Positions 15,665-42,753 of a DNA stretch of 64,000 nt are shown piece after piece. This DNA comes from Alteromonas sp. CI.11.F.A3 (GTDB taxonomy: Bacteria > Pseudomonadota > Gammaproteobacteria > Enterobacterales > Alteromonadaceae), in assembly GCF_032925565.1 (NCBI RefSeq), contig NZ_CP136708.1, positions 992,001 to 1,056,000 on the forward strand, read 5' to 3'. The stretch's first letter is position 1, and each line of letters opens with the position of its first letter. The notes under the pieces are model-generated. The model saw only the letters and a program-made list of their open reading frames with translations. It ran no database searches and was not told the DNA's origin. The position numbers and the translations under genes are program-made.

Positions 15665-15679
15665 CTCCTAAAGTAGGAG
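15665..15679 (+). promoter_or_regulatory. Palindromic operator copy upstream of the aldehyde dehydrogenase operon
   Basis: CTCCTA AAG TAGGAG is a perfect six-base inverted repeat. It is one of six related sites in this window (others at 28827, 33947, 39703, 40748 and 42738). It lies 117 bases ahead of the aldehyde dehydrogenase start. It is too far from any start codon to be a ribosome-binding site. Confidence 0.65.
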
Positions 15680-15795
15680 CCAAATCGGCCTATCGCATTA
15701 TGGTAGATTGGCAGCAAAAGTACGATTATCAAATGACACAGTAAACGATAACTAGCCGCGTGTTGACGCGCTAAGCATTCAAAAAAGGTGTCATT

Positions 15796-17313
15796 ATGAT
15801 TTACGCAAATCCAGGAAGTGAAGGTTCAGTAGTCAGTTTTAAAGAAAGTTATGGTAATTTTATCGGCGGTGAGTGGGTTGCGCCGGTTAAGGGTGAATAC
15901 TTTATTACGACATCGCCTGTAGATGGCAGTGATATAGCACAAATTCCACGTTCTACCGCTGAAGATATTGAGCTGGCTATTGATGCTGCTCATGCGGCTA
16001 AAAAAGGATGGGCGGAGACGTCGGTAGCAGAGCGCTCAAACATTCTTTTGAAAATAGCCGATCGTATTGAAGCCAATCTTGAAATGCTTGCGGTAGCGGA
16101 AACATGGGATAACGGTAAGGCCGTGCGTGAAACCCTGAACGCCGATGTCCCATTGGCTGCTGACCATTTCCGCTATTATGCTGGTTGTATACGCAGCCAA
16201 GAAGGTACTATCGGCGAAATAGATAAGAACACAGTGGCTTATCACTTCCACGAACCCTATGGCGTAGTAGGCCAAATCATTCCATGGAATTTTCCACTAC
16301 TTATGGCGGCGTGGAAACTCGCACCGGCTATCGTAACGGGTAACGTAGTGGTATTGAAACCTGCAGAGCAAACGCCCGTGTCGATTTTGGTGTTTGCTGA
16401 ACTTATTCAAGACTTGCTACCGCCAGGCGTACTCAATATTGTAAATGGGTTTGGTGCAGAAGCAGGCCAAGCGCTTGCCACAAGTACCCGAATTGCCAAA
16501 ATCGCCTTCACGGGTTCCACCCCAGTGGGTGAACATATTCTACGTTGCGCCGCTGAAAACCTTATACCGTCTACGGTTGAACTTGGCGGTAAGTCACCGA
16601 ACCTGTTCTTCCCAGACATTATGGATCATGAGCCTGAGTTCATTGATAAATGTGCAGAAGGTTTAGTACTTGGTTACTTCAACCAAGGTGAAGTGTGTAC
16701 CTGCCCATCTCGAGCGGTTATTCATGAGGATATCTACGATGCGTTCATGGATAAGGTGATTGAAAAAATCCACAAGATTAAACGTGGAAACCCACTTGAT
16801 ACAGAAACTATGGTCGGCGCGCAAGCCTCTAGCGAACAGTTCGATAAAATTCTTAAGTACATTGATATTGGTAAATCAGAGGGGGCTGAAGTTGTTACGG
16901 GCGGAGAGAAAGAGCGCCTTCCTGGATTAGATAAAGGTTACTACATTCAGCCTACTATTTTGAAAGGTCACAACCAAATGCGTGTGTTCCAAGAAGAAAT
17001 CTTTGGGCCTGTTATTGCGGTACAAACCTTCAAAACCGAAGAAGAAGCTATTGAAATTGCTAACAATACCAGCTTTGGACTAGGCGCTGGGCTTTGGAGC
17101 CGCGACGCGAATATTGCTTTTAGAGTAGGTAGAGCTATTGAAGCGGGGCGCGTATGGACAAACTGTTATCACCTTTACCCTGCACATGCCGCTTTCGGTG
17201 GATATAAAAAGTCTGGGATCGGCCGTGAAACGCACAAGATGATGATGGATCATTATCAACAGACTAAAAACTTGTTGGTGAGCTACGACATTAATCCACT
17301 TGGTTTCTTTTAA
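15796..17313 (+). CDS. NAD-dependent aldehyde dehydrogenase, ExaC/AcoD-like
   Basis: The 505-residue enzyme should oxidise the aldehyde produced by the alcohol dehydrogenase to the carboxylic acid in the cytoplasm. It shows the family signatures: [18 protein letters not shown], the catalytic-base motif VELGGKSPN, and [11 protein letters not shown] with the catalytic Cys. The CTCPSR form is typical of the ExaC/AcoD acetaldehyde-type branch. The C-terminal [14 protein letters not shown] is also conserved. It heads a plus-strand run with the NosR-like, FIST and hybrid kinase genes. A copy of the island's palindrome lies in its upstream region, fitting co-regulation with the PQQ enzymes. Confidence 0.93.
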
Positions 17314-17352
17314 TTAAGGGGAGGGCAGCACATATGTGCTGCCTATGTCTTT

Positions 17353-19443
17353 ATGTTGAAGTCGCTCCTGTTTCTCTGTTTTACGATAACCTCTATCTCG
17401 CTAGCCTTTGCGCAATCTGACGCCACTGCGATCCCCGAAGAAGTACACCGCATTTTTCCTACCGCTACCCGTGTAGGCGCTGCGCACACCGACATTAATG
17501 TAATACCGGTTTATCAATTGCAGCAATTGCTAGGGTACGTATTTGAATCGAAAGATTTTGTCGACTTTATCGGTTTCTCGGGTAAGCCTGTTAATGTATT
17601 AATTGGTCTTGATCCCCAAGGTAACTTTGCTGATTTAGCCATTAAAAAACACAGTGAACCCATTTTTTTGCATGGATTAGGCGAGCAGTCGCTAAGAGAC
17701 TTTATCGCGCAGTATAAGAACCACAATGTGAAAGAGCGCTTTGTCGTTGGGGGCAAGAGTCATGTAGGCAAGAATGCGACTTACTTTGATGGTGTGACCA
17801 AAGCCACGGTATCGGTACTGGTAATAAACGATACTATTGTGACGTCGGCGTTGGCGGTAGCACGAGCCAAGCTAGATGGTTTTGTGGTACCGAGCACACG
17901 CATAATTAACCCTGACTATTTTGAAGCGCTAACCTTTGAGCAGCTTGTGAAAGCCGGTTATATCCGAAAACAAACCATTTATCGTAATGAACTAGATGGC
18001 CTTGCCACTGAAATCATCGATGCAGCCAACAGCGTTACCAATCCAGAGGAGCTATTATTTTCTGAGCACTACTTTGGCTTTCTTAGTTTACCTATCGTGG
18101 GTAAAAACCTGCTCAGTGAAGATGAATACCTCAGGCTTCAAGAAAGCTTAAAGCCTGGTGAAGTAGCCATGTTGGTAATCAATACCCAAGGCTTTAGTTT
18201 TGTGAGCGATGAATTTATCCCCCAAACCGCGCCAGAGTTTTTTCGCCTTTCCCAGTCGGCATTTACGATTGATGCCCGAGATATAGATTTCTACAGTTTT
18301 TATGACCCCAGCTTTGCTCAACCAATCCCTGCATTCAACGAACTGAAAATCCTGCGGATTAAATCACAAGGTGGGCTGTCACTTGACCAGGAAATGACAG
18401 CCTCCATTAGCTTGCCCTTTAGCCCTCGATTTATGGAGCAAGATGAGCACCTGTTTAACCACACGTTTTTATTACCTGACGTGCTATTTATGGAAAATCC
18501 CGATGCACAGCAAAGTGCTGCTGTGCCCCTTTGGCAGCAATTGTGGCAAAGCAGGTGGCTGGAGCTCAGTATTACAATTATTTACTTAATTGCGCTGTCA
18601 TTGTTCTTTGGTTTCCAGCGAAAGCTAATGAAATACACGCGCATGGTGCATGTAGTCAGAGGGGCATCACTGCTATTTGTCTTGTTCTTTATTGGCATCT
18701 ACGCACAAGGGCAATTGTCGGTCGTCAATATCTATACTTTGTTACTCGATTTAGCGGATGGTTTTTCTATTGAAGTCTATTTGCTCGACCCTGTCATCTT
18801 TGTGTTGTGGTGCTTTGTATTTGTGTCGTTATTTATTGTGGGGCGCGGGCTTTATTGCGGCTGGTTATGCCCCTTTGGCGCGCTACAGGAGATCATGGCA
18901 GTTGTTGCACAAAAGTTAAAAATAAGGCAGATTCGAATAAAGCCAAAACACCATAAATATGCACAAAAACTTAAGTATGTCGTGCTTGTTGGCTTGGTTG
19001 CAACGTCGTTTTACTCACTGACATTGGCCGAGAAGCTGGCCGAGGTTGAGCCGTTTAAAACCTCAATTACGCTCCATTTTGTACGCTACTGGCCGTTCGT
19101 ACTTTATGCACTTTTACTTTTAGGATTAAGCTTAAAAATTCACAAAGTCTATTGTCGCTACCTTTGCCCATTAGGTGCCGGTTTAGCGATTTTAGGGCGC
19201 TTTCCTATCGTGAAGCTTTTAGAGCGGCGTAAAGAATGTGGTAATCCTTGCCAACTGTGTAAACAGAAAAAGTGCGGCGTAGATGCCATCGAGCAAGACG
19301 GCAGTATTGATTACGCAGAATGCGTACAGTGCTTTGAATGTGTCGTAACGCTAGATAATCCCAATCTATGCAAAATTGATAAATATAAGAAAAATAAGGT
19401 GCCAACACGTGTCAAAAACTTCCATCCTGTCCGCGCTGAGTAA
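17353..19443 (+). CDS. NosR/NirI-like membrane flavo-iron-sulfur protein
   Basis: The 696-residue protein begins with a signal peptide ending SLAFAQ and a periplasmic FMN-binding domain whose flavinylation-type motif reads DGVTKATVS. The second half has about five membrane helices carrying two cytoplasm-facing C-x3-CP motifs (YCGWLCPFG and YCRYLCPLG). The C-terminus is a ferredoxin-like region with C-x3-C-x2-C-x4-C and CVQCFECV. This is the NosR/NirI/RnfD-type layout for moving electrons across the membrane. Homologues near quinoprotein genes are known but poorly characterised. It follows the aldehyde dehydrogenase by 39 bases and overlaps the FIST gene. An electron-transfer or redox-sensing role in alcohol oxidation is inferred. 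Confidence 0.87.
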   Translation: MLKSLLFLCFTITSISLAFAQSDATAIPEEVHRIFPTATRVGAAHTDINVIPVYQLQQLLGYVFESKDFVDFIGFSGKPVNVLIGLDPQGNFADLAIKKHSEPIFLHGLGEQSLRDFIAQYKNHNVKERFVVGGKSHVGKNATYFDGVTKATVSVLVINDTIVTSALAVARAKLDGFVVPSTRIINPDYFEALTFEQLVKAGYIRKQTIYRNELDGLATEIIDAANSVTNPEELLFSEHYFGFLSLPIVGKNLLSEDEYLRLQESLKPGEVAMLVINTQGFSFVSDEFIPQTAPEFFRLSQSAFTIDARDIDFYSFYDPSFAQPIPAFNELKILRIKSQGGLSLDQEMTASISLPFSPRFMEQDEHLFNHTFLLPDVLFMENPDAQQSAAVPLWQQLWQSRWLELSITIIYLIALSLFFGFQRKLMKYTRMVHVVRGASLLFVLFFIGIYAQGQLSVVNIYTLLLDLADGFSIEVYLLDPVIFVLWCFVFVSLFIVGRGLYCGWLCPFGALQEIMAVVAQKLKIRQIRIKPKHHKYAQKLKYVVLVGLVATSFYSLTLAEKLAEVEPFKTSITLHFVRYWPFVLYALLLLGLSLKIHKVYCRYLCPLGAGLAILGRFPIVKLLERRKECGNPCQLCKQKKCGVDAIEQDGSIDYAECVQCFECVVTLDNPNLCKIDKYKKNKVPTRVKNFHPVRAE

Positions 19444-20584
19444 ACCCGCAAGCCAGTCTGTGCATGCCGCCTACTTGGCGGCAGATGCGTGTCACGATGT
19501 GGCCAGTGAAATATTATCTAAAGCAGCACTAGATGAAATAGAACTCGTACTTTTTCACACATCCACATCCTTTGATTTAGATGACGTTGCGAAGCAAATG
19601 ACATCTCTGTTTGCCAATGTGCCCACAGTAGGTTGCACTAGCGCAGGAGAGTTTAATAAAAACGGGTACTGTACTGAAAGCCTAGTTGTTGTGGCTTTTT
19701 TAAAATGCGAATTTTCCATAGCTACCGCGCTAGTTTCAAACTTAGATGAAATTAATTTCGACGAAGCCCACGATACGGCAAGTGGGCTGCGTAATACTTT
19801 GCAGGCAAGAGACAAACGATACGATACCAATCAACATTTTGTAATCTCTGTTTTAGACGGGCTTACCCGCCACGAGGAGCATTTCCTTGAGACGTTCGCT
19901 ACCGCGTTTGGCAATATTCCTCATTTAGGAGGAAGTGCCGGCGATGATTTAAAACTTGAAGCGACCTATGTTTTTTATCAAGGTGAGTTTCACCAGAATG
20001 CCGCGGTATTGATGTTGGTGGGAACCGGTAAACCTTTCTCTGTTTTTTCAGTTGATCATATCGACTCGCCAGTATCTAAGCTGGTGGTCACCAAGGCAGA
20101 TCCTGAATCTCGTACGGTTTACGAGATTAACGGCGAACCAGCTGCGCAATACTATGCGAGTTTACTTGGGTTAAAGGCTGCTGATTTAACCCCTGATGTG
20201 TTTTCAGTATTTCCATTGGCGGTACTGGTAGGGGATAGGTATTTTATCCGATCGATACAAAAAGTCGATTTGGCCACCAACGCTATTACTTTTTACTGTG
20301 CGGTAGATATCGGCATCATTCTTACCTTTGTGCAGCTTGGTGACTGTATTGATGCTATGGAGCAAAAGTTAGAAACCCTTAGCAAGGAACTGGGGGAAGC
20401 CGAGTTTGTGTATACGTGTGATTGCTTTTTGCGGCGCTTAGAAATAGAGCAAAATAAAAAAACGGCTGAAATTCAGCGGCTACAAAATAAATATCAAGTA
20501 GCTGGGTTTAATGCTTATGGTGAACATATACATTCGGTGCATTTAAACCAGACCTTCACGGGGGTGTATTTTGCTAAAAACTGA
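19409..20584 (+). CDS. FIST-domain sensory protein
   Basis: The preferred start is GTG 19409, preceded by AAGGTG, giving about 391 residues; a TTG at 19376 is also possible. It overlaps the NosR-like gene by 35 bases. The protein has the FIST N-terminal part (HTSTSFDLDDVAKQM, VPTVGCTSAGEF, GGSAGDD) and a FIST_C part with the ending VAGFNAYGEHIHSVHLNQTFTG. FIST domains are thought to bind small ligands such as amino acids. It overlaps the hybrid kinase by 14 bases and probably supplies ligand sensing to it. To my recollection a similar FIST/kinase pair sits near the exa genes of Pseudomonas. Confidence 0.88.
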   Translation: MSKTSILSALSKPASQSVHAAYLAADACHDVASEILSKAALDEIELVLFHTSTSFDLDDVAKQMTSLFANVPTVGCTSAGEFNKNGYCTESLVVVAFLKCEFSIATALVSNLDEINFDEAHDTASGLRNTLQARDKRYDTNQHFVISVLDGLTRHEEHFLETFATAFGNIPHLGGSAGDDLKLEATYVFYQGEFHQNAAVLMLVGTGKPFSVFSVDHIDSPVSKLVVTKADPESRTVYEINGEPAAQYYASLLGLKAADLTPDVFSVFPLAVLVGDRYFIRSIQKVDLATNAITFYCAVDIGIILTFVQLGDCIDAMEQKLETLSKELGEAEFVYTCDCFLRRLEIEQNKKTAEIQRLQNKYQVAGFNAYGEHIHSVHLNQTFTGVYFAKN

Positions 20585-23114
20585 GTCGCACATCGAGACT
20601 GAAGTAAACAAGGCGCACGAGGAAACTGAACTAGAGAGGCTTCGTCGCGAACTCACACGCCAAGTTGATGAAAACGAAAAGCTTGAAAAAATTAACGCTG
20701 CACTCATGTATCGCATCGAAGAAGGTGGGTTCAATCACCATAGTTACCGTGCCTTTGAGCACGCAGTGCAGCTATCAGAAAAAGTAAATGAAAAAACCGA
20801 AGCCCTGCAAGTTGTACTGCAAAAGTTAGAAAAATCGAATGCCGAGATAGCTAGAGCCCATCAAGAAACGAACCAGTTAAAGCAGCGCTTAAATGATGCT
20901 ATTGAAAGTATCAACCAAGCCATGGTGTTACTCGATAGCAAGGGTGCAGTCATCTATTTTAATCGTCACTTCACCATAGTGTGGGATAACTTGACCATTA
21001 CGCCCCAAATTGGCGATAACTATTACGATATCACCCAGCATGCAAAGCATTTAGGGGTTATCCGTCGGGTGCTTCCTCCTGATTCAGAAGGTCGTATTAT
21101 CTACCAGCTGTCTAATAGCAGGTGGTATCAGCTTACTATTCGCCGCACCCAAGAAGGCGGCAAAGTTATCTTGTTCAACGATATTACCGAAGTGAAGCTC
21201 AATGAGTCGAACCGGTATGAGCAGGTCATCAAAGAGAAAAATAAACTGCTGCAAAGCCTCATTGATAGTGTTGATGTTGGTATATTACTTATTAACCAAG
21301 AGGGCGGCGTTGCCTTTTGGAACGATACGTTTTTAACCCAATCTAATTTGTCAAAGCAGACAATGTTCGATTGCAAGAACATCTATTCCCTGCAAATGCA
21401 TACTGACTGGAGCGGGTTAAACCTTGAAAAAACGGGGGATACCACCCAAATCATCAACGAAAACTTGGTAGTTGATAGACGTATTACCATGCTGCCCGAT
21501 GGTAACACCCTGTGCACCTTTACTAATGTAACGTCCCAGCATCAGTATGCGGAAACCTTAAAGCAGAACGAAAGCTGGATCCGTATGATTACCGATAATG
21601 TGCCCGCACTTATCGCCTATATCGGTACCGATAAACACTTTCTATATACCAATAAGGGTTATCGAGATTGGTATGGATTAGGCGCAGAACCTTTGTATGG
21701 CGTAGCGATGGAGCAAAGCCATCTTAAACATGTTTACCCTAACCTGATGCCTTATGTTGAACGAGTGAATAAAGGAGAAGTTGTCACGTTTCAAAGTGAA
21801 GAAACCAATGCTCAGGGCGAAACGGGTTTCTTACAAAAAGTCTATTTGCCGCATTTCAACGATAAGCACGAGATAGAGGGGCATTTTGTATTAGCGACTG
21901 ATGTGTCGGAACAGGTAAGAAGTAAGCAGCAACTGCAGGCCGCGAAAGATCAGCTGGAGTCAAATGTTGAAAAACGTACCCGCGAACTCCACCACGCGAA
22001 TATTGCGCTGCAAGAAGCGATGAATTCTAAGAGTAAGTTTTTAGCGGCGATCAGTCACGATTTAATGCAGCCCTTAAGTGCAGCAATTTTGTTCAATGAG
22101 TCGTTACGAGATCAAGTGCAAGCCTCGGCGGGCCCAATTGTGAGTGCATTAGATAACTCGCTGTCTGATTTGAACAGTCTAATACGTACATTGATTGAAA
22201 CCTCGAAGTTAGATGCGGGCGTAGTGCAGCCTGATAAACAGCGCGAGAATGCGCTTCCGTTGCTAACGCAGTTAGCCGAGGAGTTCAGCCACATTAGCCA
22301 CGACTACCAGGTAAATTTTCGCTACAAATTTCAAGACGCTATTGTTCATACAGACGTAAGCTTACTATCCCGAATTTTACGTAACTTACTGAGTAATGCG
22401 ATGAAGTACGGTGCCAAAGGGAAAGTGCTTTTTGCGGCTAGGACGATGGGTAGTCATCTTCGTATTAGTATATTTGACCAAGGCGTAGGAATAAGCCAAG
22501 CAGATCAAACGGTAATCTTCAAAGAATTTAGCCGTTTGGAAAATGACTTTAACTACTCTTATAGTTTAGGACTTGGGCTTTACATTGTAGATAAAATGAG
22601 CCGGTTACTTGAGCACGACATCAGCGTTTCATCTACGCAAGGGCTAGGGTCTTGTTTTACTTTATCGGTGCCCCTAGCATCTGTTCAGGAAGTTGAGCAC
22701 GAGGCTACGTTTGATGCTACACCCCAGTATAATTTGCCTGATAACCTTCTAGATAAGCAAATATGGCATATCGACAACGACACTAATATGCGTATAGCAA
22801 TGCAAACGCTATTTGAAAACTGGGGAATGGAAGTGGTTACATTTTCTGGTTTCGCGCAATGCATGGCGGTGATGGACAACTGCTTTGATGACTGTGATTT
22901 ACTTATCGTCGATTATCATTTGGATGACGGAGAGAACGGCTTGGAAATAGCGAAGCAAATTAAGCAAACATTGCCTTCTATGCCCATCATGTTGTGCACG
23001 GCTAATCACTCAAAAGCGCTAGAAAACGAGTTAGAAGGGACAAGCATACAGTTGTTACACAAACCCATTAATTCAGCACGCTTAAAACAAGCACTAAAAT
23101 CGTCTGTTTCATAA
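20571..23114 (+). CDS. PAS-containing hybrid sensor histidine kinase/response regulator
   Basis: The 847-residue soluble protein starts at a TTG inside the end of the FIST gene, so translation is coupled. It has an N-terminal coiled coil (about 10-110), then three PAS-like units (about 105-220, 225-320 and 335-450). HisKA follows with FLAAISHDLMQPLSAA (phosphoacceptor His near 496), then HATPase with LRNLLSNAMKYG and FDQGVGIS, and a C-terminal receiver (about 725-845) with LLIVDYHLDDGENGLE. No membrane helix is seen. It most resembles the ErcS-prime type cytoplasmic kinases of alcohol-oxidation regulons. The LuxR regulator convergently encoded at 23168-23827 is a likely phosphorelay partner, which is inferred. 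Confidence 0.9.
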   Translation: MLKTESHIETEVNKAHEETELERLRRELTRQVDENEKLEKINAALMYRIEEGGFNHHSYRAFEHAVQLSEKVNEKTEALQVVLQKLEKSNAEIARAHQETNQLKQRLNDAIESINQAMVLLDSKGAVIYFNRHFTIVWDNLTITPQIGDNYYDITQHAKHLGVIRRVLPPDSEGRIIYQLSNSRWYQLTIRRTQEGGKVILFNDITEVKLNESNRYEQVIKEKNKLLQSLIDSVDVGILLINQEGGVAFWNDTFLTQSNLSKQTMFDCKNIYSLQMHTDWSGLNLEKTGDTTQIINENLVVDRRITMLPDGNTLCTFTNVTSQHQYAETLKQNESWIRMITDNVPALIAYIGTDKHFLYTNKGYRDWYGLGAEPLYGVAMEQSHLKHVYPNLMPYVERVNKGEVVTFQSEETNAQGETGFLQKVYLPHFNDKHEIEGHFVLATDVSEQVRSKQQLQAAKDQLESNVEKRTRELHHANIALQEAMNSKSKFLAAISHDLMQPLSAAILFNESLRDQVQASAGPIVSALDNSLSDLNSLIRTLIETSKLDAGVVQPDKQRENALPLLTQLAEEFSHISHDYQVNFRYKFQDAIVHTDVSLLSRILRNLLSNAMKYGAKGKVLFAARTMGSHLRISIFDQGVGISQADQTVIFKEFSRLENDFNYSYSLGLGLYIVDKMSRLLEHDISVSSTQGLGSCFTLSVPLASVQEVEHEATFDATPQYNLPDNLLDKQIWHIDNDTNMRIAMQTLFENWGMEVVTFSGFAQCMAVMDNCFDDCDLLIVDYHLDDGENGLEIAKQIKQTLPSMPIMLCTANHSKALENELEGTSIQLLHKPINSARLKQALKSSVS

Positions 23115-23167
23115 TACGTGCTATTTACTTAAGCCAATAGACAAGCGGCATGCAGGCATAGTACGTA

Positions 23168-23827
23168 TTAATTGAATACGTACTGGTTAAAATCGATATT
23201 AGCAGCGCTGGCCACTACTTTGACTCGATTGCTTGCTCCTAATTTTTTCAAAATCGATGATACATGTGATTTCACGGTTGTTTCTGAAATATTGAGCTCA
23301 TAAGCAATAACTTTATTCGCTAGCCCTTGGGTTAAATACTTCAAAACCGCTAATTCTTTTCTGGTTAATGATCGAATTTGATCAAGCGAAATAGCATCTT
23401 CTTTTTTTACGCGATTTCGGACTGATGACGTACGCAAGATTTCAGATGGAAGGCACACGTTGCCTTCAAAGATAGATTCGACTGACGTTGCAATCTCTTC
23501 GATTTTACTACTCTTTGATATAAACCCGACTGCACCATAAGAGATGGTTTGAAGAATGTTATGTTTCTCGGTTTCCGCCGAGATGATAACAACAGGAAGG
23601 TTAGGATGTTGGTTCCTAATTTCAAGTAAACCATTAAGCCCGCAGGTTTCAGGCATGTTTAAATCAAGCATTACAAGATCGAAAGCAGAATCAGCTTCAA
23701 GTAACTCAAGTGCTTCAGATAGAGAGTTGGCTTCAAGGGTCTGAGACTCAGGAAATTTTTTACCCAATATCGTCACCATGGCGTGACGAAAAATGGGGTG
23801 ATCGTCAATAATAAGAATTCTTTGCAT
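23168..23827 (-). CDS. LuxR-family response regulator (ExaE/ErbR-AgmR-like)
   Basis: The 219-residue protein has a receiver domain (acidic DD at 7-8, phosphoacceptor in LVMLDLNMPETCGL) and a LuxR output domain reading LTRKELAVLKYLTQGLANKV then ISETTVKSHVSSILKKLG. It is convergent with the hybrid kinase and stands at the edge of the pqq/alcohol island. In pseudomonads, regulators of this type activate exa, ped and pqq genes. It is therefore the best candidate for binding the palindromes at 15665, 28827, 33947, 39703, 40748 and 42738, but that link is inferred. Confidence 0.9.
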   Translation of the reverse strand: MQRILIIDDHPIFRHAMVTILGKKFPESQTLEANSLSEALELLEADSAFDLVMLDLNMPETCGLNGLLEIRNQHPNLPVVIISAETEKHNILQTISYGAVGFISKSSKIEEIATSVESIFEGNVCLPSEILRTSSVRNRVKKEDAISLDQIRSLTRKELAVLKYLTQGLANKVIAYELNISETTVKSHVSSILKKLGASNRVKVVASAANIDFNQYVFN

Positions 23828-23978
23828 ACTATTACTACCCTCGGCTTAGCAAGTACCCAAATGCACTCACACAATACGTAACTCGACGCATGTTTGTTAA
23901 ATTTATTTTAACAAAATAGTTACAATGTGAGCAAGCGAATACGACCGAAGTCTTATAATAAAAAAGCCTTAAAAATTA

Positions 23979-24779: not shown

Positions 24780-24833
24780 TGTTTATTACCCTGCAAATTT
24801 GAGTGCTATAAAAATCACCTATTTTAAAAATTG

Positions 24834-24870: not shown

Positions 24871-24877
24871 TTAACAA

Positions 24878-26164: not shown

Positions 26165-26270
26165 ATGCCCTAATGTAAATTTCGGGTGTCAGTAAAATTG
26201 ATAATAGATTTATATAGTTTTTGAACCATTGGACGTAAGGCTTGTTAGCCTCGTTCTTTAGGACTAAGAA

Positions 26271-33739: not shown

Positions 33740-33760
33740 AACTACTCCTTGGGTATTTGA

Positions 33761-33784: not shown

Positions 33785-33809
33785 GATTACTTATCACAAT
33801 GGCTTAGGT

Positions 33810-33888
33810 TTAGCGGTTGCTGATATATAGCGTTACTTCAAAACCTAGGCGCATTTCAGTGTATTGAGGTTTAGTCCACATTGTCATT
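33810..33888 (-). CDS. pqqA: pqqA, PQQ precursor peptide, interrupted by a one-base frameshift
   Basis: Read on the minus strand from the ATG at 33888 (after GAGGAA), the peptide begins [16 protein letters not shown], matching PqqA N-termini. It then meets TGA at 33840-33838. In the next frame the sequence continues EVTLYISNR and stops at 33812-33810. This contains the conserved E-x3-Y that becomes PQQ. The break lies at a run of five T where four would keep the frame. The downstream frame has a TAG just before, so no alternative start explains it. The site reads GGT TTT TGA A, where a +1 slip on TTT-T would restore the peptide, as in prfB. A sequencing or assembly error, or a real lesion, is equally possible. 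Confidence 0.85.
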
Positions 33889-33946
33889 TCCTCTGTCTTT
33901 TGGATGAGTTCAATATGAGTATATGTTGATTACCTGTTAACAGATA

Positions 33947-33962
33947 TCCTTCTAAAGGAGGA
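33947..33962 (-). promoter_or_regulatory. Palindromic operator copy upstream of pqqA
   Basis: TCCTTCTAAAGGAGGA differs at one base from the common form TCCTCCTAAAGGAGGA. It lies 59 bases upstream of the pqqA start on the minus strand, with a TATACT-like -10 element between them, as expected for an activator site. Confidence 0.7.
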
Positions 33963-33975
33963 GAATTACCATGAA

Positions 33976-35796
33976 TCATGATGATTTTCGGGTAGTGGCT
34001 AAGCGTTGTAAATAGGCCACCAGTAAAGGGATAGGGCGGCCGGTGGCCGAGTTAGCAGTGCCATATTTAAATGCGGTACCAGCCACGTCCATATGAGCCC
34101 AAGGAAAACTCTGAGCAAAGCGAGATAAAAAACAACCTGCGGTAATCATACCTGGGGAGTTTTTCCCTGCGTTAGTCATATCAGCATGGGAAGAGGCGAT
34201 GGCGTCATGATATTCAGGCCACAGCGGAAAGGGCCATGCTGGGTCGTGGCTTTGCTCTCCGGCATTAACTAGCGCTTGTTCTAGCGAACGGGAGTTGCTC
34301 ATTACGCTGCTGCACGTGTGCCCTAATGCGGTGATTGCAGCACCGGTTAGGGTGGCGATATCTATGACAGAGTGAGGGGAAAACCGTTCGCTGTAACTTA
34401 GTGCATCACACATTAGCATTCGCCCTTCGGCGTCAGTGCTTTTAACTTCAACAGTTTGTTTGGAATGGGTAGTAATAATATCGCCGGGTCGGTAGGCATT
34501 GCCGCCAATACTGTTTTCAGCGGTAGCCAATATTCCAATAATATTAATATTCAAGCCTAGTTCGGCAGCGGTTTTAATTACTCCGAGGACGCAAGCGGCA
34601 CCTGCCATGTCGTAAATCATGTGATGCATGTCACCACCGCGTTTTAAGGTGATGCCGCCTGAATCAAACGTCACACCTTTACCTATCAAGACCACTGGCT
34701 TGGTGTTTTGACTGTTGCCGTTATCGGTAATGCTATCGTTGTTTTCACCGCTGTGGGCACTATTACCGCTGTGGGCACTATTACCGCTATGGGCATTATC
34801 ACCGCTAAAGGCACTGTCACCGCTAAAGGCACTGTCACCACTTTCGGCATTTGCAAAGTGATTACCTGAATAATGAATTACCGGCATAGAGGCAGGGAAT
34901 GCTGATGCGCGATTAACCGCTAAATACGCATTCATGCCTAGTGCTTCTAACGAATATTGGTCGATAATCTCTGTGGTAATTTTAGAATACGTATTCGCGA
35001 GTATTGTCGCTTGTTCTGCCAAACACACGGGGGTACATAAATTCGCTGGCATGTGTGATAAATCTCGCGCTAAGCCCATACCCTTTGCTAGGGCTGCCTC
35101 ATAGTTTACGCAAGCTAGTAATACATTTGCGGTATTGTCCGAGGCTAGCTCTGGACTTTCATATGATTGCTCGCCTGATGCTGCATCTAATTCCTTATCT
35201 AACGCTAGGTTATTTATCTCGGCTGTTGAAGATACTTGTATGCTTAAGCTTTGCGCTCTTTTTACCGCTAGGCTTGGCGCTCTCGTCACCGCTAAGCAGG
35301 GAGCCGATTTATACCCTTCAAACTGGTAACAACAAAAATGAAATGCGCGCAATAACTGGCTAACAAGTGTTATTTCTTGCTTACTCTGTTTACTTGCGTC
35401 TTTCAAACTGCGAGAAACAGCACGGCAAGGTAGCACCAAAGTGATCGTTGCCGCTTTTAACGAAAGGGCGTACTTAAACACATCTACAAATAGCTTACGC
35501 GTGCCATGAGAAGCCGAGGGATGGTCAAAACTAAAATTGAGGCTTTCTGCTAAATCACCCACTCCCCAAATAAGCCATCGTTTTGCAGCCGCCCCTACAG
35601 GTCGATGCAATAAAATGCTTTGCCCCTTAGCCCCTATAAACGCTTCATCAACAAATACCTGCTGGATAAAAGCTTGCGTGTTCTTGGGGAGGTTGTTAAC
35701 GGTGGGATTTATATCTGCAAGCGAGCAAAGCCAAATCACGCAATCGGCGTCTACTTTGTGTAAGTTGCACTCGGGTACTAACATCACGTTTGTCAT
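33976..35796 (-). CDS. Leucyl aminopeptidase family (M17) metallopeptidase
   Basis: The 606-residue protein has an M17 catalytic domain. It shows VVLIGKGVTFDSGGITLK, the signature STDAEGRMLMCDAL and HMDVAGTAFKYG, which hold the two-metal ligands and the catalytic Lys and Arg. Its N-terminal half is divergent. An 18-base repeat in six copies (34747-34854) encodes a Ser/Gly/Asp/Asn/Ala/His-rich stretch just before the catalytic core, lengthening the protein beyond the usual 500 residues. It is the last gene of the ABC-transporter operon and ends 87 bases before pqqA. Trimming of processed PqqA is a tempting but unproven role. Confidence 0.88.
   Translation of the reverse strand: MTNVMLVPECNLHKVDADCVIWLCSLADINPTVNNLPKNTQAFIQQVFVDEAFIGAKGQSILLHRPVGAAAKRWLIWGVGDLAESLNFSFDHPSASHGTRKLFVDVFKYALSLKAATITLVLPCRAVSRSLKDASKQSKQEITLVSQLLRAFHFCCYQFEGYKSAPCLAVTRAPSLAVKRAQSLSIQVSSTAEINNLALDKELDAASGEQSYESPELASDNTANVLLACVNYEAALAKGMGLARDLSHMPANLCTPVCLAEQATILANTYSKITTEIIDQYSLEALGMNAYLAVNRASAFPASMPVIHYSGNHFANAESGDSAFSGDSAFSGDNAHSGNSAHSGNSAHSGENNDSITDNGNSQNTKPVVLIGKGVTFDSGGITLKRGGDMHHMIYDMAGAACVLGVIKTAAELGLNINIIGILATAENSIGGNAYRPGDIITTHSKQTVEVKSTDAEGRMLMCDALSYSERFSPHSVIDIATLTGAAITALGHTCSSVMSNSRSLEQALVNAGEQSHDPAWPFPLWPEYHDAIASSHADMTNAGKNSPGMITAGCFLSRFAQSFPWAHMDVAGTAFKYGTANSATGRPIPLLVAYLQRLATTRKSS
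34747..34854 (-). repeat. Six tandem 18-base repeats inside the M17 gene
   Basis: Plus-strand units read like ACCGCTGTGGGCACTATT and ACCGCTAAAGGCACTGTC, with the last unit degenerate. Being a multiple of three, copy-number changes keep the reading frame. The encoded hexapeptides are of the S/G-D/N-S/N-A-F/H-S-G type. Confidence 0.9.
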
Positions 35797-35821
35797 GGGC
35801 GGCCTTGTTGGTCAGGACTTT

Positions 35822-36634
35822 TTATGCGCTGTTTTTTCCGAGGCTTCTGTTTCCAAAGCCAACGGCAGCCGGTTTTGGTCTAAAGCTTCTCACTGCTAGG
35901 GTAAAGGTAATAAAGGTAAGTACGGATACAATCATAAGCTCTTTTGTCGCAAGCTTTTCATACAGCCCAAAGCGTAGCAGTTCAACGCCGCTGGTAAACG
36001 GATTAAACGCGCATACTTGATACAGCCACTCACTTGCTTCTTGCATTTTCCACAAAGGGTAAAGTGCGCTCGAAAGGAAAAACATAGGAAAGATAACGAA
36101 GTTCATCACCCCAGCAAAGTTCTCTAATTGTTTAATGGAATTTGCCAACAATAAGCCTAGCGCGCCAAGAAAAATCGACAATAATGCAATGATGGGTAGC
36201 GCGTAGACATAACCCATTAAGGGCAATTGCACGTCAACAAATAACGCCAAGCAAAAGAATAAATAAACCTGTATTGCTGAAACCAGTGTATTGGCTACTA
36301 ACTTACTGCATAACAAAAATGAGCGGGGCACTGGGCTCATTAGCAGTACCTTCATGCTACCCATTTCACGGTCGTAAACCATAGATAACGAACTTTGCAT
36401 GCTATTGAAAAGGATAATCATCGCCGCTAAACCCGGCACAATATATTCCTCATACAAAATGTAAGTTTCATAAGGCGGGAGCATCGAAAGCCCTAGTGCC
36501 GAACGAAACCCCGCGGCAAATACAAATAACCATAACAAGGGGCGCACTAAGGCACTAAGCAGTCTAGACCGCTGCTGCCAAAACTTCAGCATTTCTCGAT
36601 TTAAAACACCCACAAAACAGCGCCAATACATCAT
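35822..36634 (-). CDS. ABC-2 type permease of the PQQ-associated ABC transporter
   Basis: The 270-residue membrane protein has about six helices. The ABC-2 permease signature region reads PGLAAMIILFNSMQSSLSMVYDREMGSMKVLLMSPVPRS, seen in pieces of the family pattern. It lies 42 bases after the ATPase gene and 25 bases before the M17 gene. ABC-2 systems are usually exporters. A permease of this type is repeatedly found with an ATPase, a YVTN beta-propeller and a binding protein in genomes with PQQ alcohol dehydrogenases. The transported compound is unknown. Confidence 0.88.
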   Translation of the reverse strand: MMYWRCFVGVLNREMLKFWQQRSRLLSALVRPLLWLFVFAAGFRSALGLSMLPPYETYILYEEYIVPGLAAMIILFNSMQSSLSMVYDREMGSMKVLLMSPVPRSFLLCSKLVANTLVSAIQVYLFFCLALFVDVQLPLMGYVYALPIIALLSIFLGALGLLLANSIKQLENFAGVMNFVIFPMFFLSSALYPLWKMQEASEWLYQVCAFNPFTSGVELLRFGLYEKLATKELMIVSVLTFITFTLAVRSFRPKPAAVGFGNRSLGKNSA

Positions 36635-36676
36635 GCCCGATCCCTAGCCTGTTCGCACTTACAGTAGGTATTGATA

Positions 36677-37396
36677 TTAGTTTGCATGAGTTAATACCTC
36701 CCAAAGCCGATGAATATCCGAGACGTGATGTTTAGCAAGCAATGCCGAGCAAATATCTCGTTCTACTAGTCGGCCATTTAACAATATGGCGAGGGGATCA
36801 GTTAGCGATACCTCTTCAAATAGATGGGTAGCCCACAACACAGTCACGCCTTGTTTCACTGCTAAGTCATGAACCACCGAATGAATTAGCTGTCGAGAGG
36901 CAATATCTAACCCTACCGTGGGTTCATCGAGTAACAAGGTGCTGGGTTGGTGAATAAGGCATCTTGCCAGCTCAACACGGCGGCGGTGGCCTCCGTTTAA
37001 ATGGCGGATTTTAGTATTCAGACGGTCGCTAAGATCAAGTTCGTTTAATAAGTCACTGATGCGTGAAATTGACTTCTCTGGGGCCAGCCCATGGAGGGAT
37101 GCAAAATAGGCGAGGTTCTGCTTTACGGTAAGGTCAATATCCAAAGTACTTTGCTGAAATACCACGCCAAGCTGTTTCATTATTGGCGCACGTTTATGCG
37201 CTATCGTGCTGCCATTAAATAAGATATTGCCATGGCCAATTCGTTGTAACCCTGTGAGTAACGCAAACAGGCTGCTTTTCCCTGCACCATTAGGGCCAAG
37301 TAAAATATTAAAACCAGGCTTTAAGGTAAGTGAAATGTCATCAAGGGCTGTCACTTTACCGTAAGTATGGCTAACCCCTTGGATATCTATTTCCAT
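36677..37396 (-). CDS. ABC transporter ATP-binding protein of the PQQ-associated system
   Basis: The 239-residue ATPase has Walker A (LLGPNGAGKSS), a Q-loop in GVVFQQST, an unusual signature LNGGHRRRVELAR in place of LSGGQ, Walker B (TLLLDEPTVGLD) and the switch His in ATHLFEE. It overlaps the 3' end of the beta-propeller gene by ten bases. It energises the ABC-2 permease encoded next. The G-G-H-R signature is typical of the ABC-2 exporter class. Confidence 0.92.
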   Translation of the reverse strand: MEIDIQGVSHTYGKVTALDDISLTLKPGFNILLGPNGAGKSSLFALLTGLQRIGHGNILFNGSTIAHKRAPIMKQLGVVFQQSTLDIDLTVKQNLAYFASLHGLAPEKSISRISDLLNELDLSDRLNTKIRHLNGGHRRRVELARCLIHQPSTLLLDEPTVGLDIASRQLIHSVVHDLAVKQGVTVLWATHLFEEVSLTDPLAILLNGRLVERDICSALLAKHHVSDIHRLWEVLTHAN

Positions 37397-38367
37397 TTAA
37401 CGGCAATTCCCCATGGGTAACGTCCCACCTTAATCGTCTTTTCAACATCGAATGTTTCAGTATTGATAACCGATACGTCGCCGCTTACCCCGTTTGTGGT
37501 GAGCAATAATGACTGGTCTTGGTTAAACGCTAATTGCCACACGCGTCTACCTACCACTATGTATTTTTCTATTTCAAATGTGTTGGTATTCACCACAGCA
37601 ATGCGGTTTGCAGGGCCAAGGGCCACAAACGCGTAGGGGGAGTCTCGCATCAACAATATCCCTACGGGTTGTATTTTGTCGCGGTATACGCCCTTAACTG
37701 CAAAAGACAAGGTATGCGCTTTTTGTTTGGTTTGAGTATCAAATATGGCGACTGTGCCGCCGATTTCGGAGCTTACCCAAAGATACTTATCGTCGGCGGT
37801 GAAGTGGGCGTCACGTGGGCGAGCATCCACTAAGCTATTGGCAATGTTCTCGTGGGTGTTGGTGTCTATCCAGTGCACCATGTTGGTGGTTTCTGAGGTA
37901 ACCACCATCATGTGGCCGTCATGGCTTACCGCTAACCCTTCTGGTTCAACCCCTACATCTATTTGTGCAATTACTTGGCTGGTGGGAATATCAATAACGG
38001 TGAGCAGGGCATCATCTTCATTAGCGGTGTAAATGGTAGTGCCATTGGGATGAAGGGCAATGGTTTCAGGATCTTCACCTGACGGTAAGTCGCCCACAAT
38101 AGTATGGGTGTCTAAATCAATAATTTGAATGCGATCTGAATCCGAGGCGCAAATATAAGCACGAGATTGATCAGCACTTAATATAAATCCCCTTGGCCGC
38201 TCGCCAATGTCTAATGTATCAGTCACTTCAAATGTATTCATATCAATGACTGATAGGGTATTGTCCTTTTCATTGGTCACATAGGCCTGTGGCATAGCGT
38301 TTACACTCAGGCTAGAGGCCAACAAGCCTAATAACAAAATGCGAGTGCCTGAAAAGCGAATTTTCAT
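37387..38367 (-). CDS. PQQ-associated YVTN beta-propeller protein
   Basis: The 326-residue exported protein has a signal peptide ending SVNAMPQ. It contains about seven repeats of roughly 42 residues with the YVTN pattern, for example AYVTNEKDNTLSVIDMNTFEV and its echo GDVSVINTETFDVEKTIKVG. It should fold as a seven-bladed propeller in the periplasm. It overlaps the binding-protein gene by four bases and the ATPase gene by ten, so it is part of the transporter operon. Such propellers accompany quinoprotein dehydrogenase systems, but their partner and ligand are unknown. Confidence 0.9.
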   Translation of the reverse strand: MKIRFSGTRILLLGLLASSLSVNAMPQAYVTNEKDNTLSVIDMNTFEVTDTLDIGERPRGFILSADQSRAYICASDSDRIQIIDLDTHTIVGDLPSGEDPETIALHPNGTTIYTANEDDALLTVIDIPTSQVIAQIDVGVEPEGLAVSHDGHMMVVTSETTNMVHWIDTNTHENIANSLVDARPRDAHFTADDKYLWVSSEIGGTVAIFDTQTKQKAHTLSFAVKGVYRDKIQPVGILLMRDSPYAFVALGPANRIAVVNTNTFEIEKYIVVGRRVWQLAFNQDQSLLLTTNGVSGDVSVINTETFDVEKTIKVGRYPWGIAVKWK

Positions 38368-39629
38368 AAGGTGTCCTTACAAGTGTTAGTGGTGTCACCT
38401 AAGGTGTCTAGTTCATCGCGCTGGTGTAAAAAACCTGGGAGAGGGGCGTGTATTACCAGGGCGTCTTCATGTGCTAACGCAATAGGTTGACGAAGTTGGC
38501 GCGTGCTTTCACGAAAGGTGAGCTGTCTTCCTTTATAGGCGGCAACACTTAGTTGTTCACCAATGAGTGCGTTAAATAATTGAGTTCCTGTAACAGAGCC
38601 GTTGTTTTCAGAATCACTACTTTCACTTCGCTGCAAAGCAGTCGATATAGCAATAATGGCGGCATAAGCAGCAAAGTCTACTTCATTCATGGTGCGTGAG
38701 AACTTGTCTTTAAAGCGATTTTGAAGCTGCCTTGCTCCCCACTGCTCATGGGTAAAATGCCACCCTAAAGGTTTAAGACCTGCTGAGCCCATAATGGGCA
38801 CAATAAGGTGGGTATTAAACGGCAAACTGTAGGCATATTGGCGCTGGGTATCGGCAGCAAAAATAGCGTCGTAAGGTTTCTTAGTTCGAGTGAAAAGGGG
38901 AATTTCAGAAAAAGCAGAGCGCCGTAAGTCGAAGCTTGCCTGCCAAGTTTTCGCTTCAACAATGTTTAACTTAAATTTCTTCGCGGTACGTAAAAACGCG
39001 TCTAAGTAAGCCTTGTCACTTTCATGAGCGCCGCGCAAGGTAAGCACAGAGCCCAAACGCTTAACTCTAAGCCACTGACCAAGCGCATCGGCTTTCATTT
39101 GGTAGCTAGGGTAGGTGTGTAATACGTTAAGCTCGCAGTGCATGTGGCGAAATGCATCCTTACCACTGGCTACATTCATAACCAATGCGCTGGGGTTAAT
39201 CGATGCCACTGAACGGACGGCTTCTTGATATTGCGCATCTGGGCTATCGATAAGCACCACGGGGGCATGGGTAATAGCGTCGATAGCAGCTGAATCTAAA
39301 GCGTTTATGTAGGCAAGCGTCAACGCGTAGCCTAAAAACTTTCCCGTAATATTGGCATCTTCAATACCAATTTCGGCACCTGCAATTCCTTCGTCAGTAG
39401 GGCTAATTAAATACGAGGGCGTGCCCGCGGGCGGAGTGCGTCTCAGATTAAGGTAAACCATGTTCGTAGTGTTAGGTTGAGCTTCAGCTTGCCCTTTAAA
39501 TTTGGTTCCAGACTTGTTTGGGGATTGGGCATGCAAGGCTGATACGCTTAGCAGTAGGGTTGATATCCCTATCCATACTTTTGCTTTTTTCATAAACCAG
39601 CGAAGGGCTCTATTCACACTTCTATTCAC
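38364..39629 (-). CDS. Periplasmic binding protein of the PQQ-associated ABC system
   Basis: The 421-residue product has a signal peptide (about 10-35, ending SALHAQ). It has a type I periplasmic-binding fold resembling branched-chain amino-acid receptors, with segments such as GAEIGIEDANITGKFLG and GSVLTLRGAHESDKAYL. It is the first gene of the minus-strand operon with the propeller, ATPase, permease and M17 peptidase. One island palindrome lies 74 bases upstream, in the shared region with the divergent MoxJ-like gene. The ligand is unknown; pairing a binding protein with an ABC-2 exporter is unusual and characteristic of this gene set. Confidence 0.87.
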   Translation of the reverse strand: MNRSVNRALRWFMKKAKVWIGISTLLLSVSALHAQSPNKSGTKFKGQAEAQPNTTNMVYLNLRRTPPAGTPSYLISPTDEGIAGAEIGIEDANITGKFLGYALTLAYINALDSAAIDAITHAPVVLIDSPDAQYQEAVRSVASINPSALVMNVASGKDAFRHMHCELNVLHTYPSYQMKADALGQWLRVKRLGSVLTLRGAHESDKAYLDAFLRTAKKFKLNIVEAKTWQASFDLRRSAFSEIPLFTRTKKPYDAIFAADTQRQYAYSLPFNTHLIVPIMGSAGLKPLGWHFTHEQWGARQLQNRFKDKFSRTMNEVDFAAYAAIIAISTALQRSESSDSENNGSVTGTQLFNALIGEQLSVAAYKGRQLTFRESTRQLRQPIALAHEDALVIHAPLPGFLHQRDELDTLGDTTNTCKDTL

Positions 39630-39702
39630 ACTTCTTTTTTGAAAGTGCGCCTTTTGTCAGTCGCGATACAAAAAGGGTATATGGCATTATTCCCGAATAA
39701 CA

Positions 39703-39718
39703 TCCTCCTAAAGGATGA
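39703..39718. promoter_or_regulatory. Palindromic operator copy in the divergent promoter region
   Basis: TCCTCCTAAAGGATGA, also readable as CATCCT...AGGATG, lies between the divergent ABC operon (start 39629) and the MoxJ-like gene (start 39802). It is 74 and 84 bases from the two start codons. One site could activate both directions. Confidence 0.68.
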
Positions 39719-39801
39719 ATGCTATGGCGCTAAAGTAGCATTCGGGAATACCCGCCTGCGCATTAGTATAAAAAGCACCTAGCGTAAACAGAGTTCTTCA
39801 A

Positions 39802-40686: not shown

Positions 40687-40747
40687 TGTCGTTGAGCAAT
40701 GCGATTGAACTAAAAACCCGCCCTTGCTAGGCACTCTTCCTGTTAAT

Positions 40748-40767
40748 TCCTCCTACTAAAGGAGGGG
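40748..40767 (+). promoter_or_regulatory. Palindromic operator copy upstream of the alcohol dehydrogenase
   Basis: CCTCCT and AGGAGG flank ACTAA, so the arms are perfect but the spacer is five bases instead of two. It lies 111 bases before the quinoprotein dehydrogenase start. The altered spacing may change affinity or mark a second regulator. Confidence 0.65.
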
Positions 40768-40878
40768 ACAAATCACTCAGCCGTTCCATAGGCACGGCCG
40801 TTATGCACCGCTATTCTAATTCTATCGAATAGTCCGCACGTCAGACTCATTCATGGCCAATACGCATTAGGAAACGTT

Positions 40879-42666
40879 ATGAATAAACAACTACCACTAA
40901 AAAGAATTGCCTTAGCTTTATTGGTTTGTGCCGGTGCCGTTTTACCTGCCCAAGCTAACGTGACCGATAACGACATACAAAACGATCAAGCCACTACTGA
41001 CGATATCGTATCCTATGGCATGGGGCTACGGGCACAGCGATACAGCCCATTGTCTGCGATTAATAAAGACACCATTGAAGAAATTCGACCAGTCTGGGCA
41101 TTTTCACTAGGCGGCGAAAAGCAGCGGGGCCAAGAGTCTCAGCCTATGGTGAAAGACGGTGTTATGTATGTCACAGGTTCTTACTCTCGTGTCTGGGCTA
41201 TTGATGCTATGACTGGCGAAGAGCTATGGCAGTACGAAGCCCGTTTACCCGATGGCATAATGCCTTGTTGTGATGTTATTAATCGTGGCGTTGCCTTGTA
41301 CGACAACTTAGTTATATTCGGCACACTAGATGCCAAACTGGTAGCCCTTGATAAAGACACAGGCAAAACCGTTTGGAAGAAAAAAGTAGAAGACTATAAG
41401 GCTGGTTATTCTATTACTGCTGCGCCTATTATTATTGATGGCATGGTGATCACGGGGAACTCAGGTGGTGAGTTCGGTGTGGTAGGAAAGGTATACGCCT
41501 TTGACGCTAAAACCGGCAAACAAATTTGGGTTAGACCTACCGTTGAAGGCCACATGGGATATATGTGGAAAGACGGTAAAAAAACCGAGAATGGTATTTC
41601 TGGCGGCGGAGCGGGTAAAACCTGGCCTGCAGATTTATGGAAAACCGGCGGCGCTGCAACCTGGCTCGGCGGCACATATGATGCTGATACCGGGCTGTTA
41701 TTTTTTGGTACAGGTAACCCATCACCTTGGAACTCTCACCTTCGCCCAGGTGATAACTACTTCTCATCATCTCGTTTAGCAATTAACCCTAAAACGGGAA
41801 AAATTGTGTGGCACTTTCAAACTACGCCTCACGATGGCTGGGATTTTGATGGTGTAAACGAGCTTATATCCTTTGATTACGAAGATGCTGGTAAAACAGT
41901 GAAAGCTGCTGCAACAGCGGATAGAAATGGTTTCTTTTATGTATTGAACCGTGAGGATGGAGATTTCATCCGAGGCTTCCCGTTTGTAGATAAATTAACA
42001 TGGGCTAAAGGTTTAGATGAAAATGGACGTCCTCTTTACATTGACGATGTTCGCCCAGGTAACCCTTCATTATCTGACGACGGAAAGAAAGGCGCACAGG
42101 TTGTTGCTCGCCCTGCTTTCTTAGGTGGTAAGAATTGGATGCCGATGGCGTATTCACCTGATACAGGTTTGTTTTACGTACCTTCCAATGAATGGGAAAT
42201 GGATATCTGGAACGAGACTACTTCATATAAGAAAGGGGCGGCTTACCTAGGCGCTGGCTTTACCATCAAATCGGTTAATGAAGATTATATTGGTGTGCTT
42301 CGCGCCATTGACCCGAAAACTGGGAAAGAAGTGTGGCGTTATAACAACTTCGCGCCACTATGGGGTGGGGTAATGACCACGGGCGGCGGGTTAGTCTGGA
42401 CCGGTAACCCAGAAGGCTACTTAATGGCCTTTGACGATAAAACTGGCGAGATGGTTTATAAGTTCCAAACAGGTTCAGGCATTGTAGGCTCACCTGTAAC
42501 GTGGGAGATGGAAGGCGAGCAATATGTGTCTGTCTTATCCGGCTGGGGCGGCGCAGTACCTTTATGGGGCGGTGAAGTCGCTAAGCGGGTTAAACACCTG
42601 AACCAAGGTGGAACGGTATGGACATTCAAATTACCTAAACGTTATGAGCAGGTCGCCAAAAACTAA
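40879..42666 (+). CDS. PQQ-dependent alcohol dehydrogenase, lanthanide-type active site
   Basis: The 595-residue periplasmic quinoprotein oxidises alcohols to aldehydes with PQQ. It has a signal peptide ending PAQAN and the vicinal disulfide Cys130-Cys131. Eight propeller blades carry W motifs such as [13 protein letters not shown]. It lacks a fused cytochrome domain, so it is a type I enzyme. Metal ligands by family position are Glu198 (GGEFG), Asn280 (GTGNPSPW) and the catalytic Asp322 in GWDFDGVNE. Asp324, two residues on, is the signature of lanthanide-dependent XoxF/ExaF/PedH enzymes; calcium enzymes have Ala or Ser there. Substrate range (methanol, ethanol or larger) is open. The neighbours supply aldehyde oxidation and cytochrome c. 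Confidence 0.93.
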
Positions 42667-42687
42667 TAGTTCATAAATACAATTGAG

Positions 42688-42718
42688 GCCGGTACTGTCA
42701 AAGGTATCGGCTTTTTTT
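42688..42718 (+). terminator. Terminator after the alcohol dehydrogenase
   Basis: GCCGGTAC pairs with GGTATCGGC, allowing a G-T pair, and is followed by seven T. The cytochrome gene downstream has its own palindrome and -10 element, so the two are separate units. Confidence 0.85.
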
Positions 42719-42737
42719 ATATCCGAAATAGCCTTTA

Positions 42738-42753
42738 TCCTCCCAAAGGAGGA
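42738..42753 (+). promoter_or_regulatory. Palindromic operator copy upstream of the cytochrome c gene
   Basis: TCCTCCCAAAGGAGGA differs from the common form at one base. It is followed 44 bases later by a perfect TATAAT at 42798-42803, and the cytochrome gene starts at 42833. This copy shows the clearest activator-to-promoter geometry. Confidence 0.7.

Follow-up and report, generated by a model that had tools for sequence, protein, structure and literature searches.

The palindrome TCCTCCTAAAGGAGGA recurs at the promoters of a gene cluster for alcohol oxidation dependent on pyrroloquinoline quinone (PQQ) in Alteromonas sp. CI.11.F.A3, where it very probably serves as the operator of the LuxR-type response regulator encoded at 23168-23827, a relative of AgmR, ErbR and PedR1 (regulator 23168 hereafter; other unnamed genes are likewise called by their start). 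The cluster lies in a stretch of 64,000 nucleotides (contig NZ_CP136708.1, positions 992,001 to 1,056,000), which is termed the window and supplies the coordinates used here. Sites of this form precede the genes for an aldehyde dehydrogenase, a TonB receptor, pqqA, the divergent sbp1/moxJ pair, a quinoprotein and a cytochrome c. The initial annotation had described six copies at PQQ and alcohol-oxidation promoters, and the window count, the genome scan and the comparison of relatives all bear this out; its coordinates were off by up to three bases at some of the sites, and it lacks two weaker sites, at kinase 13785 and the putative porin 24878. The regulon probably extends a little beyond what was stated. 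The proposed operators are given below, with counts that refer to the 11 genomes of the genus carrying the cluster.

15663-15678, plus strand: operator of the aldehyde dehydrogenase gene exaC (CCCTCCTAAAGTAGGA), identical in 11 of 11 genomes and in Glaciecola locus L086
28827-28842, minus strand: operator of the TonB receptor gene 26323-28764, at three mismatches or fewer in 9 of 11 genomes, not found in G014 and G035
33947-33962, minus strand: operator of pqqA, in 11 of 11 genomes
39703-39718, no strand assigned: operator of the divergent sbp1 (PedA1-like)/moxJ promoter, in 11 of 11 genomes, with the perfect consensus in nine
40751-40766, plus strand: operator of the PQQ quinoprotein alcohol dehydrogenase gene, in 11 of 11 genomes
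42738-42753, plus strand: operator of the cytochrome c-550 gene (pedF), in 11 of 11 genomes
13686-13701, minus strand: putative weak operator of kinase 13785 (TCATTCAAAAGGAGGA), with three mismatches in the window and a fixed position in relatives
26251-26266, minus strand: putative weak operator of the putative porin 24878 (TAGTCCTAAAGAACGA), with a fixed position in relatives

The sites are inverted repeats of the form 7-2-7, two heptamers around a two-base centre (TCCTCCT-AA-AGGAGGA), and each of the six promoter sites differs from the consensus TCCTCCTAAAGGAGGA by one or two mismatches. At three mismatches or fewer, the window holds 13 strand-wise matches against 0.28 expected, a number reached by none of 100 shuffles. 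Among the 64 sites of the 11 genomes, C2, C3, C6, A9, G11 and G15 are invariant (64/64), and the inverted heptamers two bases apart that characterize NarL-type sites are found across all of them, a layout that a regulator dimer would be expected to occupy. The quinoprotein copy, once thought to start at 40748 and to have a five-base spacer, reads TCCTACT-AA-AGGAGGG from 40751 with the usual two-base centre, as do its orthologues. All six strong sites have their asymmetric AAA centre on the plus strand, independent of gene direction.

As the sequence GGAGGA is similar to a ribosome-binding site, the palindromes might be regarded as Shine-Dalgarno-like or structural elements devoid of regulatory meaning, or as remnants of a repeat family. 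This is hardly credible, given that in the window the strong sites, six in number, lie 63-118 bp upstream of start codons, are symmetric, have a two-base centre too short for a loop, and are limited to one gene set with their position kept in relatives. A genome-wide motif scan and the conservation of orthologous promoters had been set beforehand as the tests on which the regulon reading could fall, and that reading, with the choice of regulator 23168, survives both. In the genome of 4.66 Mb, eight places match at two mismatches or fewer, seven of them in this cluster (19918 in nosP besides the six promoter sites) and the eighth, 4346236, within a 1005-codon open frame, against none for the reversed pattern used as control. 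At three mismatches or fewer, there are 29 strand-wise matches, compared with 10 for the reversed pattern. A profile from 17 distinct sites, whose training set includes the six promoter sites, recovered exactly these six and nothing further at E<=10, with 150 of 1780 first-look candidates scored. In a check for stop-to-stop frames that cover 17 further genomic loci (L008-L024), 14 proved to lie within frames of at least 132 codons; the others are the kinase site (L011) and two loci in frames of 32 (L015) and 86 codons (L024). The match in nosP (19918-19933) was rejected as a site and is likelier fortuitous, having one to three mismatches and varying in the first clade, and being missing at three mismatches or fewer from six of seven second-clade genomes. 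For regulator 23168, the hybrid kinase, nosP, the NosR-like gene and 23979, all within the cluster, the best matches have four to eight mismatches and none was accepted as a site.

Conservation was followed in 60 genomes, of which 36, counting the present one, belong to the genus and 24 more distantly to the order. The site cluster is present in 11 of the 36, the other 25 having zero to two strand-wise matches, and the 24 more distant genomes have zero to three scattered ones. In the relatives carrying the cluster, the sites are kept in place in the orthologous promoters: five promoters (aldehyde dehydrogenase, pqqA, sbp1/moxJ, quinoprotein and cytochrome c) retain them in 11/11. The distance from site to start is 111-114 bp for the quinoprotein and 78-80 bp for cytochrome c, with the upstream gene at 34-252 and 74-221, respectively, and 115-118 bp for the aldehyde dehydrogenase; for moxJ, sbp1 and tonB, with starts taken from alignments, it varies more. 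The weak site of kinase 13785 lies exactly 99 nt from the start in all ten genomes having the region, with two to five mismatches, and reads TCCTACCTTGGTAGGA in four of six second-clade genomes. That of the putative porin stands 150-180 nt from the start, with three to five mismatches, in 11/11.

The cluster encodes the following regulatory proteins.

23168-23827, minus strand: AgmR/ErbR/PedR1-type LuxR response regulator, the proposed binder, from domains, tree and neighbourhood
20571-23114, plus strand: hybrid histidine kinase closest to NahK/ErcS' and in the position of PedS1 (598.3 bits, under the 1500-bit cut-off)
19376-20584, plus strand: NosP (FIST) nitric oxide-sensing protein, which contains the match 19918-19933 (475.6 bits, cut-off 450)
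13785-15026, plus strand: histidine kinase of a second two-component pair, probably membrane-bound as judged by eye (HisKA_3 and HATPase_c)
15023-15652, plus strand: second LuxR-type response regulator, the rival binder, from family and domain scans

Regulator 23168 combines a receiver domain (PF00072, 86.5 bits) with a GerE domain (PF00196, 73.9 bits), and its closest relative with a solved structure is NarL. In a tree of 61 chosen rows, whose branches are long and some of whose joins elsewhere are unsure, it falls within a 45-row gammaproteobacterial clade of AgmR-type proteins that includes Pseudomonas (support 91/100), apart from the paralogues of its own genome, and it misses the NCBIfam cut-off for ErdR (163.9 against 390 bits). 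Its neighbours are nosP, the hybrid kinase and ped/pqq genes, and the order nosP-kinase-regulator is that of PP_2663-PP_2664-PP_2665 (AgmR) in P. putida (table in PMC12997753). It occurs at 88% identity or more in exactly the 11 site-cluster genomes of the 36, the next best of the 60 genomes having 55%; in a class-wide search at 1e-52, it was found in at least three of 369 genomes, its own included, with at most eight candidates scored per genome.

The second LuxR-type regulator, 15023, paired with kinase 13785, could be the protein that binds the palindromes, as it shares the cluster in 11/11 genomes and its operon is preceded by a weak site; moreover, loci of the Pseudomonas type have a second quinoprotein that is frequently close to a 15023-like regulator and that, in four of seven, has the palindrome region in common with cytochrome c. 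This is nevertheless improbable. Genome G050, which has a 23168-type regulator (55%), keeps most of the regulon and, like G003, lacks a 15023 relative at E<=1e-40, and yet the two carry the sites or their A-type form. With a pattern drawn partly from G050 itself, sites were located there before tonB, sbp1/cytochrome c, the quinoprotein, the aldehyde dehydrogenase and the regulator, the best matches at pqqB having three mismatches and those at moxJ, the NosR-like gene and the kinase six. Conversely, in L170-L173, loci of the same genus with 15023 relatives beside a second quinoprotein, no such site is present, the mismatches being five to seven to the S-type consensus and four or five to the A-type pattern (both types are described below); these promoters instead contain exact GGGAAnnnTTCCC repeats, one or two each. 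It is for these reasons, together with the tracking of operator type by the 23168-type helix, that regulator 23168 is preferred to 15023 as binder, in line with the earlier assignment.

The inverted repeats of GGGAAnnnTTCCC are at G028:C1:511939 and 512058, G014:C1:1435521, G035:C2:388488 and G011:C4:39274, and are a candidate operator of the EraR/PedR2-like (15023-type) regulator. Across ten whole genomes, the exact pattern is no more frequent than its control (36 versus 44 per strand), and the window has no exact copy and two one-mismatch matches against 1.1 expected.

A paralogue of the ErdR/CrbR type encoded elsewhere in the genome has also been considered as binder, since the published ACTU motif (e.g. 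TACTACCATCGTCGAAT) is similar in layout, and the genome has three further relatives of regulator 23168 at 37-45% identity. For CrbR to activate the P. fluorescens acs promoter, an imperfect palindrome spanning -52 to -36 is required (PMC5715377). However, at least one such paralogue exists in each of the 36 same-genus genomes, including the 25 without the site cluster, and the sites occur in the PQQ cluster alone, making this alternative highly improbable.

Regulators of the 23168 type have the recognition helix SETTVKSHV (S-type), and those of Pseudomonas, Marinobacter and some members of the same genus AETTVKAHV (A-type), whose orthologous promoters carry TACTACCAAGGGAGTA-type sites instead. 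Among SETTVKSHV loci, TCCTCCT-type sites are found in the 11 genomes and Glaciecola L086, and TCATCC-type sites in G050 and Vibrio L087, with weaker candidates only in Enterovibrio L094. For the A-type, a set of 40 AETTVKAHV-helix loci, drawn from the 80 named loci described below, plus five further genomes was subjected to an unguided motif search before genes. Before cytochrome c, TACTACCAAGGGAGTA emerged in 28/28 regions used; before the quinoprotein (17/17), the same motif was best in a shifted register, with TACTACCAAGGGACTA third (17/17); and before sbp1, CaGTACCaAGGTAGTA was best (27/29), followed by TACTACCTaGGTACaA (26/29). The sbp1 and cytochrome c counts overlap because the two promoters are often one divergent region. 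The second quinoprotein yielded another motif, ACCATGACAATAAGAT, in 7/7. The fixed pattern TACTMCCNNGGKAGTA, at two mismatches or fewer, matched 16/28 cytochrome c, 10/29 sbp1, 1/2 tonB and 4/7 second-quinoprotein regions, the controls giving 1/112 when reversed (a quinoprotein region) and 0/112 in shuffled regions. A looser pattern, run on one strand over the best 80 of 550 named loci around relatives of regulator 23168, gave 22 matches versus 9 for its reverse. When positions 2, 5, 12 and 15 were hidden from the pattern before their letters were read, C stood at both position-2 letters in 22/22 of the S-type sites found (24 regions examined, the two misses being G050 regions), and A in at least one half in 27/28 of the A-type sites found (45 examined; reversed control 1/45).

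In the NarL alignment, KSHVSS of the window protein (186-191) lies opposite KVHVKH, which we take to be residues 188-193 of NarL. The part of PMC2585596 available held nothing useful on NarL contact residues. In the Alteromonadales/Vibrionales branch of AgmR, the helix would have passed from AETTVKAHV to SETTVKSHV, with half-sites moving from the TACTACC to the TCCTCCT type alongside. That the activator changed its DNA specificity once, through alanine-to-serine replacement at DNA-facing helix places (187, also 181, and in most cases 191), that the operators of the regulon were rewritten in step, and that pqqA, the TonB receptor and exaC were taken in, is a tentative proposal, to which slightly less than an even chance is given. 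The G050 and Vibrio operators (TCATCCTAAAGGATGA, TCATCCCAAAGGATGA) may record an intermediate.

Two promoter geometries seem to recur, the long gap between operator and -10-like hexamer exceeding the short one by about 22 bp, that is, two helical turns. The short gap of 23 bp leads to TATACT in pqqA, GATACT/AATACT in tonB and TACCCT in sbp1 (or TATACC at 21), and the long gap of 44-45 bp to TATAAT/TATACT in cytochrome c, TATTCT/TATGCT in the quinoprotein and TAGTAT in moxJ, exaC having 42 or 45. Two of these hexamers, both identified by consensus match only, are placed as follows.

33918-33923, minus strand: -10-like hexamer of pqqA (TATACT), 23 bp beyond the operator
42798-42803, plus strand: -10-like hexamer of cytochrome c (TATAAT), 44 bp beyond the operator

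If the hexamers are -10 elements, the site centres fall near -43 in pqqA, tonB and sbp1 and near -65 in cytochrome c, the quinoprotein, moxJ and exaC. NarL promoter derivatives are active with a single site at -44.5, -67.5 or -77.5 (PMC7419079). The moxJ (39725-39740) and cytochrome c (42760-42775) promoters have in common a conserved CT/CC-AA-AGTAG element, centred 22 bp beyond the centre of the main operator, which is perhaps a second, weaker half-site. As a working mechanism, a dimer of regulator 23168 would bind TCCTCCT-AA-AGGAGGA and recruit RNA polymerase to the alcohol-oxidation promoters, with the dehydrogenase, cytochrome c, PQQ synthesis, the aldehyde dehydrogenase, the PedA-type ATP-binding cassette (ABC) genes and the outer-membrane receptor as proposed targets and the second kinase pair and the putative porin as weaker ones.

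Several observations weigh against regulator 23168 as the activator and against the linked change of helix and operator. As the regulator moves together with its operators and targets in a single cluster, simple co-occurrence does not identify the binder. No site precedes the regulator 23168 gene in the 11 genomes (best matches six to eight mismatches), although the regulator gene is preceded by a site in G050 and by candidates in Glaciecola, Vibrio and Enterovibrio, and no AgmR model is among the 25 families listed in the family scan. On the A-type side, the unguided search returned different motifs for the aldehyde dehydrogenase and pqqB+tonB regions, and TACTMCCNNGGKAGTA at two mismatches or fewer matched only 3/17 quinoprotein, 2/11 aldehyde dehydrogenase, 0/15 moxJ and 0/3 pqqB regions. 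Because the SETTVKSHV type forms one clade (99/90), the tree records the helix/operator change as a single event; outside the AgmR-type clade, one row from an alphaproteobacterium has AETTVKAHV as well. As for the promoters, the choice of -10 offsets was made post hoc, and a -10-like match that scores similarly or somewhat lower also lies at 17 bp in moxJ, cytochrome c and exaC.

Mutants have made AgmR/ErbR known as a switch for PQQ-dependent alcohol oxidation, and in P. putida AgmR is described as activating the ped cluster and pqqFABCDE (PMC12997753); the sections of that paper examined contain no AgmR binding site, motif or operator. Regulator 23168 would likewise activate the ped and pqq promoters. 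The Pseudomonas AgmR/ErbR/PedR1 regulon is alike in that NosP and a NahK/PedS1-like kinase adjoin a related regulator, and in its targets, namely the quinoprotein, cytochrome c-550, PedA-type genes, PQQ synthesis, an aldehyde dehydrogenase and a putative porin. It differs in half-site (TACTACC there, TCCTCCT here) and helix (AETTVKAHV there, SETTVKSHV here), and here all strong sites are in one cluster and sites are also present at pqqA, tonB and exaC. The ACTU motif of CrbR/ErdR, which belongs to a LuxR-type response regulator, is likewise imperfectly palindromic and adjoins the core promoter on its upstream side, but the regulator, the genes (acs and actP) and the half-site sequence are different (PMC5715377, Table 4). 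NarL/NarP sites share the two 7-base inverted elements 2 bp apart, the regulator family and comparable promoter positions; they differ in heptamer and regulon, and NarL responds to nitrate.

Among the matches listed in the literature searched, supplements being outside its scope, no described AgmR/ErbR/PedR1 operator was found. AIDmut-Seq mapped ErdR, with agmR only a presumed target (PMC9927353, in the part available), and the main text of the P. aeruginosa atlas made by high-throughput systematic evolution of ligands by exponential enrichment names EraR and not PA1978 in the portion at hand (PMC8041468), whose supplementary motif tables may record the A-type operator. As a NarL-type response regulator with a local regulon, the system is of an ordinary kind; what sets it apart is an operator not found in print, its clean genome-wide restriction and the linked helix/operator change. 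With the two operator forms, the direct AgmR regulon becomes open to testing in Pseudomonas, Marinobacter, Vibrio and Alteromonas; they also offer a compact example of a response regulator co-evolving with its sites, of which extant species may preserve intermediates.

The other genes of the cluster are as follows.

15796-17313, plus strand: acetaldehyde dehydrogenase ExaC (932.9 bits, cut-off 900)
26323-28764, minus strand: TonB-dependent receptor, below every cut-off listed
33810-33881, minus strand: pqqA, a precursor peptide of 23 amino acids, named from its sequence
33976-39629, minus strand: sbp1, beta-propeller, ABC ATPase, permease and M17 peptidase, PedA1A2BC-like by order when compared with the table in PMC12997753
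40879-42666, plus strand: PQQ-dependent alcohol dehydrogenase that has the motif WDFDG and a Cys-Cys pair (772.2 bits, cut-off 480)
42833-43333, plus strand: cytochrome c-550 PedF (126.9 bits, cut-off 122)

A NosR-like protein (17353-19443; 560.9 bits, cut-off 1000) follows exaC and adjoins PQQ genes in many relatives, and the M17 aminopeptidase (33976-35796) follows the PedA-type ABC genes, ending just short of the pqqA operator. The quinoprotein of the palindrome regulon has WDFDG (WDYDG in G050 and G034), and the second quinoprotein of L170-L173 has WDFSG. By a rule that we assume to hold, the two motifs would suggest a lanthanide-type and a calcium-type enzyme, respectively.

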